Below, in pieces: positions 159-8,554 of a DNA stretch of 64,000 nucleotides. Origin of the DNA: Bacteroidales bacterium (GTDB lineage: Bacteria; Bacteroidota; Bacteroidia; Bacteroidales; TTA-H9); the NCBI GenBank assembly GCA_030656615.1, contig JAUSOY010000084.1, forward strand, positions 1-64,000, in the 5' to 3' direction. Both the position numbers and the translations under genes were made by a program. The notes beneath the pieces are model-generated. The model was not told where the DNA came from, searched no databases, and saw only the letters and a list, made by a program, of their open reading frames with translations. Numbering within the stretch: the stretch's first letter is position 1; each line of letters opens with the position of its first letter.

Positions 159-839
159 CTATGGGAATTTGGGATATAGAAAATTAATTCTGCTTTTGAA
201 AGATTTTAAACTCCATAATCTATCAGGTATAATATAATCCCACCGGCTATAAGTATCGCTTAATGTGTCTACAGCAATTTTTAAGGGGTAAATTTCAACT
301 GGAAAGTATTGTTGTGGCATATCATCCCTGCATAAATAATAATCTATTTCTGCCGTAGAACAATTAAATATATCAATTGATCCCTTGATAGTAACCTGAC
401 AAAAAGCAACTAAGGGATGAGGTTCCCAGGGAAGTAATGTTGTCTTCATCTCTAAAGACTCCAAATACATAGTAATAGAATCTGGATTCATCTGCCAATC
501 AATACCCGTAAAATCGTTCTCCATATGATTTTTCTGCAGGAAAAGAGATTTCTCCTCATCAATTATTTTAATTCCGGATATTTTAAGTTCTTTTAGTACT
601 TCAGCAGTTGCGTTCATTTCCAAAGAAAACAAAATACTATCCATTGATTTATTAATGGCTATAGGCCTAATAATAATATTATTCCTGGGAATATTTTCAA
701 ACACTGGGTCAATGTTGAAATTCTCTACACAAATATTGACTGACTCAATTATCAGTCCAGAACATAACAGTTTATTTTCTTGCGATTTGGACACAAGGCT
801 CATTATTAACATTGACCCAATAAAAAAAATTCGCTTCAT
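159..839 (-). CDS. Secreted hypothetical protein; candidate immunity partner of the toxin tip
   Basis: I do not recognise the family. The 226-aa product starts with a basic, hydrophobic N-terminus (MKRIFFIGSMLIMSLVSKSQ) that looks like a Sec signal peptide, so it should act outside the cytoplasm. The rest is a mixed alpha/beta sequence with several cysteines and no catalytic motif I can name. It lies 21 bp downstream of the Rhs-type toxin tip on the same strand, where an immunity gene is normally found. Immunity to a periplasm-acting toxin would fit an exported protein. That role is inferred from position only. Confidence 0.6.
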   Translation of the reverse strand: MKRIFFIGSMLIMSLVSKSQENKLLCSGLIIESVNICVENFNIDPVFENIPRNNIIIRPIAINKSMDSILFSLEMNATAEVLKELKISGIKIIDEEKSLFLQKNHMENDFTGIDWQMNPDSITMYLESLEMKTTLLPWEPHPLVAFCQVTIKGSIDIFNCSTAEIDYYLCRDDMPQQYFPVEIYPLKIAVDTLSDTYSRWDYIIPDRLWSLKSFKSRINFLYPKFP

Positions 840-5717: not shown

Positions 5718-6710
5718 TTACTTATTGAGTTCCTTCCATATCAAATCCTTCAGTTCAACCAAGCCTGTTTGGGCCACCGAAGAAATAAATACTTTTGGAA
5801 TACTTCTTGGTAAGTCCTTTTTTAGGAGTTTTATTAATTCAGCATCCAGCAAATCGCTTTTTGTGATTGCAAGTATTCTCGATTTATCAAGCAATTCGGG
5901 ATTATACTGTTTTAACTCGTTCAGAAGAATCTTGTATTCATTTTTGATGTCCTTGCTGTCGGCCGGAACCATAAACAAAAGAACAGAATTTCGCTCAATA
6001 TGACGTAAAAAGCGAAGTCCAAGACCTTTTCCCTGCGATGCTCCTTCAATAATTCCTGGGATATCGGCCATAACGAAGGATCGATTATCTCTGTAAGCAA
6101 CCATTCCGAGGTTTGGTACAAGAGTGGTAAAAGGGTAATCCGCTATTTCGGGGCGGGCCGCAGAAACCACACTTAAAAGAGTAGACTTACCGGCATTCGG
6201 AAATCCCACCAAACCAACGTCTGCTAGGAGTTTTAATTCGATAATATACCAACCTTCTATTTTGGGTTCTCCGGGCTGAGCATGTCGTGGGGCCTGATTG
6301 GTAGACGTTTTAAAATGATCATTTCCCAAGCCTCCACGTCCTCCTCGTAATAAAATAACTTCCTGTCCATCTTCGGTAAGTTCGCATAAAGTCTCTCCAG
6401 TTTCAACGCTTTTTACGACCGCACCTAAAGGAACATCCAGTATTCTGTCCTCGCCATCAGCACCATGACACAAGGCACCGCTACCACCTTCTCCGTGCGT
6501 TGCCTTCACATGCTTGGTATACTTCAGATGAAGCAATGTCCATTGTTGTGAATTTGCTTTGAGGATGATATGACCACCCCTGCCTCCGTCACCGCCATCA
6601 GGACCGCCTTTTGGTATGAATTTTTCGCGTCGGAAATGCATCGATCCAGCACCACCGTTTCCGGATTGAAGAAATATTTTAACGTAATCAACAAAATTAT
6701 TCGAGGCCAT
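5718..6710 (-). CDS. obg: Obg-family GTPase
   Basis: This is a ribosome-assembly GTPase of 330 aa. The glycine-rich Obg fold occupies residues about 1-158 ([27 protein letters not shown]). The G domain follows: G1 [10 protein letters not shown]3 DIPG, and G4 TKSD. There is no long C-terminal extension, as is common in Bacteroidota. A -7 element 20 bp upstream and a terminator behind adk show it heads its own unit, obg-PAP2-tilS. Confidence 0.96.
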
Positions 6711-6794: not shown

Positions 6795-7964
6795 TTATCG
6801 TATTATCTTAAATGATAAGTTAACCACGTCTTCAAGCCTTTCAGCCACATCAGCTTCCGAGCCAAATCCGTCGACTTTCATGAATTTATTCTGTTTTTTA
6901 TAATACTGTTTTACTAAAGAAGTCTTGGTTTCGTATTCCTCGAGACGGTTCACAATCAATTCAGGGTCTTTATCGTAAGAACGTGCTTTCTCTGTTTTAC
7001 CTCTTGCGGCCAAACGTTTGAAACATTCCAGCGTTGGAACCTTCAGTTCAACCGTCAGTGTAACTTTTGAATTGTTTTTCTTCAATAAACCATCGAGAAT
7101 ATATGCCTGTACAAGCGTTCGTGGAAATCCTTTAAAAATAAAGCCTTTTGCATCGGAATGCGCATTGATTTCCCGCTCGATTAAACGAATAGCAATTTCA
7201 TCCGGAACAATTTCGCCTTTCTCCATGTATGGAGCAACTTTTATTCCTATATCTGTGCCTTCCTTTATCTCTTTACGCAGTAATGAACCAGTGGAAATAT
7301 ATACCAGGCCGAAATTTTGCGCCATAAGCTTGCCTTGTGTTCCTTTGCCCGAGCCCGGAGGACCCAATAAAACCATATTAACATGCTCATGCGTTAATGT
7401 CTGGTCGATTGCCTCACAAAGTCGTTCGAAAATCTCGTCCATATTGCCAATACCATTAATCGGATAGTAAATTTCCTTATCGCGATAAAAATCAATAACC
7501 GGGGTGGTTTTTGTTTCGTACTCTTTAAGACGAACTTCGATAACTTCTAGGTTATCATCGGATCTTCCACTGGTTAAACCCCTTTCTATCATACGCTTAA
7601 CAAGTTCTTCTCGAGGAACTTCCAGGCTAAGCATGCATGATAAATGATCATTCATACGAAGCAGCAATCCTTCAAGAATATAAGCCTGTACATAATTTCT
7701 GGGGAATCCATCAAAAAGAATTCCTCTGGCTTCTGTATCCGTATTAATCCGTTTTTCAATAATCTGAACTATTAAATCATCGGGCACGAGTCCACCCTTT
7801 TCAATTAAATCTTTGGCTTCCAAGCCCATATCAGTGCCTTCAGCAATTTCCTGACGCAGTAGATCACCTGTGGCGATATACGTAAGATTGTATTTTTCGA
7901 TCAGTCTTTTCGACTGTGTTCCTTTTCCCGCACCGGGAGGACCAAACAGAGCAATATTCAACAT
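6795..7964 (-). CDS. adk: Tandem adenylate kinase fusion, second domain degenerate
   Basis: Two complete adenylate-kinase domains are joined head to tail in 389 aa, where a normal Adk is about 190-220 aa. Domain 1 (about 1-188) looks active: P-loop GPPGAGKGT (8-16), ATGDLLR (31-37), FDGFPR (84-89) and GRSDD (133-137). Domain 2 (about 194-389) keeps the P-loop GPPGSGKGT (201-209), but TGD becomes TGS (Asp to Ser227), DGFPR becomes KGFPR (Lys278) and GRSDD becomes ARSYD (327-331). Domain 1 should interconvert ATP+AMP and 2 ADP. Domain 2 may be a pseudokinase, a regulatory half, or have altered specificity. It follows hpt by 53 bp and ends at a strong terminator. No frameshift is needed: it is one open frame. 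Confidence 0.92.
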   Translation of the reverse strand: MLNIALFGPPGAGKGTQSKRLIEKYNLTYIATGDLLRQEIAEGTDMGLEAKDLIEKGGLVPDDLIVQIIEKRINTDTEARGILFDGFPRNYVQAYILEGLLLRMNDHLSCMLSLEVPREELVKRMIERGLTSGRSDDNLEVIEVRLKEYETKTTPVIDFYRDKEIYYPINGIGNMDEIFERLCEAIDQTLTHEHVNMVLLGPPGSGKGTQGKLMAQNFGLVYISTGSLLRKEIKEGTDIGIKVAPYMEKGEIVPDEIAIRLIEREINAHSDAKGFIFKGFPRTLVQAYILDGLLKKNNSKVTLTVELKVPTLECFKRLAARGKTEKARSYDKDPELIVNRLEEYETKTSLVKQYYKKQNKFMKVDGFGSEADVAERLEDVVNLSFKIIR

Positions 7965-8017: not shown

Positions 8018-8554
8018 TTATTTTACAATTTTATAAATATCCGCCAGATTTCTGGCATTTCCGTCATAATCAAGACCATACCCCACAATGAAATCGTTTG
8101 GTATTTCCATTCCAACGTAGTCAATATTATAATCCTTCCGAAACGCTTCCGGCTTAAAAAGTAGGGTGGCTGTAAGAACTTCACTGGCATCCATACTCTT
8201 GATTTTGAGAATAATATTATCAAGGGTGATGCCGGTATCAACAATATCCTCTACAATTACAACGGTCCTTCCGGCAATGCTTTCATCAAGTCCGATAAGT
8301 TCCCGAACATTACTGGTGGTGAGTAAACCAGAATAAGAAGAAAGTTTTACGAAAGAAACATGACAATCATGCTTGTATAATCTGATTAGATCAGCGGCAA
8401 ACATAAAAGCTCCATTAAGGATTACAAGAAACAAGGGGTTTTTTCCTGCCAAATCCTTATTCATTCGTTCTGCCAAGGCCTCAACGGCTTTTTGAATTTG
8501 TGCGGCGGAGATATTCAATTCGAATTCTTTATCATGCACTTTAACGATACTCAT
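8018..8554 (-). CDS. hpt: Hypoxanthine phosphoribosyltransferase
   Basis: This is a purine-salvage enzyme making IMP (and GMP) from hypoxanthine (guanine) and PRPP. The PRPP-binding motif VVIVEDIVDTGIT is at about residues 94-106, and the 178-aa length is usual. It lies directly upstream of adk, so the pair joins salvage to nucleotide phosphorylation, an arrangement common in Bacteroidota. Confidence 0.95.
   Translation of the reverse strand: MSIVKVHDKEFELNISAAQIQKAVEALAERMNKDLAGKNPLFLVILNGAFMFAADLIRLYKHDCHVSFVKLSSYSGLLTTSNVRELIGLDESIAGRTVVIVEDIVDTGITLDNIILKIKSMDASEVLTATLLFKPEAFRKDYNIDYVGMEIPNDFIVGYGLDYDGNARNLADIYKIVK

Follow-up and report, generated by a model that had tools for sequence, protein, structure and literature searches.

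Adenylate kinase (Adk) is a standard model for enzyme motion that serves catalysis, and in bacteria it is usually treated as a self-sufficient enzyme of a single domain. Among the described systems, the protein studied here is closest to the bacterial short-lid adenylate kinase (PF00406; NCBIfam NF001381), with which both of its halves share the fold and the family score. The salt bridges D33-R156 and R36-D158 between the lid and the AMP domain are described as evolutionarily conserved in an excerpt of one study (PMC4619321), and another reports R36-D158 from only one of its simulations (PMC3702565, excerpt). The Walker-B residue of the Aquifex enzyme is Asp81, with Arg85 four residues later, which fits the motif DGFPR (PMC9599734, excerpt). 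More than one Adk domain per chain also occurs in the eukaryotic AK8, AK9 and AK5. Human AK4, which differs from the second half of our protein in being a separate single-domain protein, is described in part of PMC2680645 as enzymatically inactive yet nucleotide-binding. In Zobellia galactanivorans, according to an excerpt of PMC7326950, the same two functions that are neighbours at our locus are fused as HGPRT/adenylate kinase; there hpt is joined to one active Adk, whereas in the window hpt is an ORF of its own and the Adk is fused to an apparently dead copy. A frame of the Zobellia kind was also seen at L061:2589-3740 (G040), where 384 aa match hpt and Adk (194-380), in a genome that has a tandem adk as well. 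Outside the Adk family, the JH1 kinase and the JH2 pseudokinase of JAK are a live and a dead domain that arose by duplication, the dead one being allosteric (PMC10211241, excerpt); they have a protein kinase fold, belong to animal signalling and are not kin to Adk. No description of a bacterial tandem Adk family was found in the open-access (PMC) literature among the matches listed.

The window, i.e., the whole stretch of 64,000 nucleotides from a Bacteroidales bacterium that was analysed, contains an adk gene on the minus strand, which runs from the ATG at 7964 to the stop codon at 6797-6795; a reading of 6795-7964 on the plus strand was rejected, its translation being full of stops. The gene, its two halves and its neighbours are as follows:

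6795..7964, minus strand: tandem adenylate kinase ORF of 389 aa with two PF00406 matches
7386..7964, minus strand: half a, residues 1-193, a predicted live adenylate kinase with the catalytic residues kept
6798..7385, minus strand: half b, residues 194-389, a putative pseudokinase with Ser227, Lys278 and Tyr330
8018..8554, minus strand: hypoxanthine phosphoribosyltransferase (hpt), a separate gene upstream of the tandem adk, 53 bp gap
5718..6710, minus strand: GTPase Obg (obg), downstream of the tandem adk, 84 bp gap

The earlier note had seen two complete Adk domains in this frame, and the Pfam model PF00406 (ADK) indeed covers each half nearly in full, from position 1 to 150 of the 151 of the model (E 9.1e-49 and 9.8e-43), scoring 166.6 bits for half a and 147 bits for half b against a curated cut-off of 26.8. 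In the genome of the window, which is 96.84% complete, these two domains are the only PF00406 matches. The tandem differs from the short-lid enzymes in having two halves per chain, in a half b without the Walker-B and lid Asp, and in a helix with Tyr, Ile and Gly that is present in both halves.

Right after the adk stop and before obg, a terminator-like hairpin with a T run lies at window positions 6780-6761 (minus strand), and because of it hpt-adk-obg is called a cluster here and not an operon; terminator-like sites were found 6 times in the region against 3.2 expected. The same neighbourhood recurs in 33 of 74 tandems, which adjoin hpt and/or obg, and single adk genes occupy the same place. 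The other 41 tandems have neither gene in the stretch examined around them, and no neighbour family is common to more than 4 of their loci, many of the stretches reaching only 1.5 kb to each side of the tandem and some stopping at contig ends. At L019 (=L060), L020 (=L059) and L160 the gene order is hpt, tandem adk, single adk, obg, which is perhaps an intermediate in the replacement of the single gene by the tandem.

The catalytic residues were mapped by alignment to E. coli Adk, whose reference sequence was checked against 1ake. The positions that distinguish the halves are:

7710..7712, minus strand: Asp85 of half a, the Walker-B Asp (E. coli D84) in the alignment
7131..7133, minus strand: Lys278 of half b, at the Walker-B Asp site (E. 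coli D84)
6975..6977, minus strand: Tyr330 of half b, at the lid Asp site (E. coli D158)
7284..7286, minus strand: Ser227 of half b, at the TGD Asp site (E. coli D33)

Half a of the window retains D34, R37, D85, R89, R124, R128, R134, D136, D137 and R145, so that the P-loop Lys, the Walker-B Asp, the arginines and the lid Asp pair are all present and the catalytic set of the short-lid enzymes is matched. Half b shows the motifs TGS (Ser227), KGFPR (Lys278) and ARSYD (Tyr330-Asp331), which the alignment confirms as they had been read in the earlier note, with Arg328 and Asp331 of GRxDD still kept. It has thus Lys278 and Tyr330 in place of the Walker-B Asp and the lid Asp of GRxDD, and it retains the equivalents of E. 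coli K13, R36, R88, R119, R123, R156, D159 and R167, which leaves the P-loop and the full set of six phosphate-site arginines intact.

These residues were then counted in 78 a halves, 79 b halves and 65 single Adks, which come from fetched best-scoring loci and not from a random sample, and which cover only some of the tandems listed in the order-wide survey. L155 contributes only a b half (contig end), and the incomplete L049 is excluded from A1 and included in the fetched halves. The very divergent Adk-like L064_s (Asp at 85, Ile at 136) was excluded from the residue counts, the 222-row tree and the entropy comparison, while L153_s and L154_s are counted among the 65 singles and were dropped from the singles of the entropy comparison (n=63). 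At the D84 site, Asp is found in all 78 a halves and all 65 singles, and the b halves have Lys (77 of 79), Asn (1) or Asp (1). The D158 site holds Asp in 78/78 a halves, which all possess both Asp of the lid pair, and in 64/65 singles (Glu in one), as opposed to Tyr in 78/79 b halves and Cys in the last. At the D33 site, the a halves have Asp (69/78), Glu (7) or Asn (2), and only 2 of the 79 b halves have Asp. Since the Lys and the Tyr of the window's half b recur in 77 and 78 of the 79 b halves, they are not due to chance. With the Walker-B Asp absent from 78/79 and the lid Asp from 79/79 b halves, half b is very probably catalytically inactive, in line with the pseudokinase that had been proposed for it. 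The residues lost in half b act on the phosphates and the lid and not on the base, and the further proposal that this domain acts on a different nucleotide found no support. That half b is still a catalyst, in which Lys278 replaces the placement of Mg2+ or which uses another substrate, is very unlikely. Its intact P-loop and six phosphate-site arginines would suit such a role, and catalytic residues can migrate in pseudoenzymes (PMC10211241, excerpt); however, the loss of the Walker-B Asp in all b halves except one is joined by the loss of both bridge acids in at least 77/79 and, in about a third of them, of the P-loop Lys (28/79) or R37 (30/79), and five Arg-to-Lys changes in an Adk each brought a large loss of rate, as reported in an excerpt of PMC11835391. 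The b half of L160:3488-4666 (G815) has kept the Walker-B Asp and has lost R89 and R134, with FPI for FPR and Cys for the lid Asp; it was either inactivated by another route or represents an early state.

Other positions are more constant within half b. In half-a numbering, D62, Q93, R124, R128, D137, Tyr95, Ile96 and Gly99 are common to all 79 b halves, and R145 is retained in 78 of them. The P-loop, the retention of which the earlier note had taken as a sign of selection, is intact in the window, but as its Lys is replaced by Arg in 28/79 b halves it is not the most conserved feature of the family. Of the 79 b halves, 45, including that of the window, have kept the whole trio of P-loop Lys, R37 and R134, and 8 are mixed for the three residues. 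In the remaining 26/79 (for example L051-L058, L023, L096-L102 and others), all three are absent, with Arg for the P-loop Lys, and the Lys, the Tyr and the helix motif remain; neither hpt nor obg occurs beside any of them in the stretches examined. P-loop nucleotide binding can therefore not be the shared function of half b. These 26 speak for a purely structural or scaffolding half b, which would stabilise half a or bind another protein without nucleotide sensing and with little kinetic effect. We consider this unlikely, because the 45 b halves that retain the P-loop Lys, R37 and R134 are hard to explain without nucleotide binding, and the neighbours of the 41 tandems away from hpt and obg, with no family in more than 4 loci, do not point to a partner. 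For a half b with an intact P-loop and arginines, such as that of the window, it is conceivable, though not our expectation, that it binds nucleotide and acts as a sensor. In its full form, which we put forward only tentatively, half b would bind adenine nucleotide without turnover and a pseudo-symmetric contact of the two helices after Walker-B would relay its state to the lid of half a, so that the sole Adk of the cell would sense the energy charge.

In the phylogeny of the two halves against single Adks, as suggested in the earlier note, half b forms a single clade in all three trees, with a support of 99 (49 tandems and 40 singles), 99 (222 rows) and 100/99 (90 rows). Half a is a single clade in the first of them (94) and forms one clade together with two loss lineages in the 90-row tree (87/85, bootstrap not settled), whereas in the 222-row quick tree it is not one clade and half b arises from within the a halves, the branches concerned being weakly supported. 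The 90-row tree contains 30 of 78 tandems and 30 singles, six long-branch singles having been omitted by choice, and the trees contained no eukaryotic sequences. The simplest account of the tandem's origin is that one gene underwent one internal duplication. The b half that branches first is that of L160, with a support of 91 for the other 78.

The tandem was tallied by eye in the genome tables, with a best E <= 1e-130 as the threshold. Of the 60 nearest genomes, 21 have it, among them 8 of the 9 from the window's family (the ninth being 65% complete). It is also present in 88/393 sampled genomes of the order (>=80% completeness), in 6/395 genomes of the class sample, in 8/395 of the phylum sample, and in 3/100 genomes of the class of G541; the window's own genome is included in the counts for the nearest genomes, the order, the class and the phylum. 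The record titles include Labilibaculum, Ignavibacteriae and Calditrichaeota, and several classes of the phylum are covered. An assembly artefact or an oddity of one genome was rejected, since the tandem recurs across the sampled genomes of order, class and phylum. A mobile origin found no support: tblastn searches returned 216 plasmid and 20 phage records, all below 60% identity, and in the best 8 of each the span comes from one Adk domain used twice. The tandem of L052, a record titled Desulfobulbaceae, shares 97% identity with the one in L051, an Ignavibacteriae record, which may be a case of misbinning. A single Adk at L082:1453-2577 (G336) lies in an open frame of 375 aa with about 170 residues beyond the Adk domain. 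Some genomes have two tandems, or a tandem and a single Adk. In 13 of 20 genomes chosen for checking, the tandem is the only PF00406 ORF, so that the working enzyme there must be half a, unless an unlike enzyme replaces it; in the window genome, too, half a is probably the working adenylate kinase, the tandem being the only Adk ORF found in it.

Selection was assessed from dN/dS in the 22 closest pairs listed. Where the ratio is computable (it is not for b in 6/22 pairs and for a in 9/22), it lies at 0.011-0.126 for half b and at 0.007-0.088 for half a, values that are rough, as most pairs are close to saturation in dS or beyond it. The least saturated pairs agree with the others: L051/L052 (a 0.044, b 0.013), L005/L010 (a 0.057, b 0.049) and L056/L057 (a 0.020, b 0.019). 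Judged by these ratios, half b is under purifying selection, as the earlier note had expected; the near-neutral evolution it had named as a refutation is not what the values of about 0.01-0.13 indicate, and relaxed evolution of half b, with dN/dS far below 1, is disfavoured. Half b nevertheless diverges faster than half a, with a mean identity of 0.51 as opposed to 0.61, half a being the higher in 1148 of 1176 pairs. In addition, the single-domain Adks at L153:1520-2143 (G871) and L154:1953-2615 (G962) each cluster with half a of a tandem from a congener (support 99/89 and 99/84), and these genomes (93% and 91% complete) have no other PF00406 match. Half b was thus apparently lost twice, from which it follows that half a alone suffices in these lineages and that half b is not always needed. 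The faster evolution and the two losses are what would be expected if half b were a passenger decaying after a recent duplication, but the low dN/dS, the near fixation of the b-specific Lys and Tyr across the fetched sequences, and the spread of the tandem over several classes of the phylum and a record labelled Calditrichaeota make a mere passenger hardly credible.

One helix, which follows the Walker-B loop, varies less in either half than in the singles:

7656..7694, minus strand: helix 91-103 of half a (Tyr95, Ile96, Gly99), proposed docking face from the predicted model and conservation
7077..7115, minus strand: helix 284-296 of half b (Tyr288, Ile289, Gly292), proposed docking face from the predicted model and conservation

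The mean entropy of helix 91-103 is 0.65 in half a, 0.54 in half b and 1.53 in the 63 singles, whereas in five other regions (P-loop, AMP domain, Walker-B loop, lid and 145-153) half b is more variable than the singles. All 78 a halves and all 79 b halves have Tyr95, Ile96 and Gly99, whereas positions 95 and 99 of single Adks are mostly charged or polar. Counted from the Walker-B residue, the three lie at +10, +11 and +14. According to an excerpt of PMC9599734, the region of a P-loop NTPase that its partners usually touch extends from about +1 to +12 past the Walker-B Asp, and Gly99 falls just beyond it. The low variability of the helix in the two halves suggests a docking face; against this, shared ancestry alone could explain the same motif in both, and G871, which has no b half, retains it, although G962 has lost it. 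Because the conserved helix is common to the two halves, a contact in cis is proposed, and we slightly favour the view that half b docks on half a through this helix.

In the predicted structures, half b of the window (194-384) matches 5ycb_B with Z 27.7 and rmsd 1.4 over 185 aligned residues, half a matches a solved Adk with Z 25.8 and rmsd 2.2, and both halves of the L051 model likewise match solved Adks. The AlphaFold pTM is 0.57 for the window protein, which leaves the placement of its two domains poorly defined, and 0.76 for the relative L051, the model of which suggests a defined arrangement of the halves. Among the Foldseek matches listed, at most 50 or 60 per search, no solved two-domain structure has the same arrangement, and the nearest two-domain chain is AK8 (9fqr_G8), with an rmsd over the aligned two-domain chain of 17.5 for the window model at its pTM of 0.57 and of 15.6 for the L051 model, values that may reflect a different arrangement in the predictions.

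The best reading of these data, towards which we lean with some confidence, is that of a dead duplicate docked in cis, with a tuning or stabilising effect on the live half a. An adenylate kinase gene would have been duplicated head to tail, and the first half would have stayed the working enzyme. The second would have become a pseudokinase through the replacement of the Walker-B Asp, which helps to place Mg2+, by Lys, and through the loss of one acid from each of the two lid/AMP-domain salt bridges, with the Adk fold kept. Half b would then lie in cis on the live half, with helices 91-103 (a) and 284-296 (b) most likely as a pseudo-symmetric docking face, and the docked half b would tune or stabilise the lid movement and catalysis of half a. 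The duplication, the replacements, the single origin of half b, its purifying selection, the tandem as the sole Adk found in 13 checked genomes and the two apparent losses can be read from the sequences; the inactivity of half b, its docking and any change it makes to half a are inferred. The lower conservation of half b compared with half a, its two apparent losses, the Walker-B Asp kept in the b half of L160, the low pTM of the window model and the R36-D158 bridge reported from only one simulation in PMC3702565 count against this reading. By analogy, the tandem Adk may work like the live-dead pairs JH1-JH2 of JAK, with which it shares, as far as sequence can tell, an inactive duplicate in the same chain that is kept by selection.

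For annotation, the finding is a warning, as the NCBIfam models name the whole 389-aa tandem protein adenylate kinase. For the biology of the family, a sole cellular Adk with an inactive twin kept by selection would be a natural experiment on the control of lid motion, with comparisons built in: relatives without the twin (G871 and G962) and a relative in which the twin was changed by other residues (L160).
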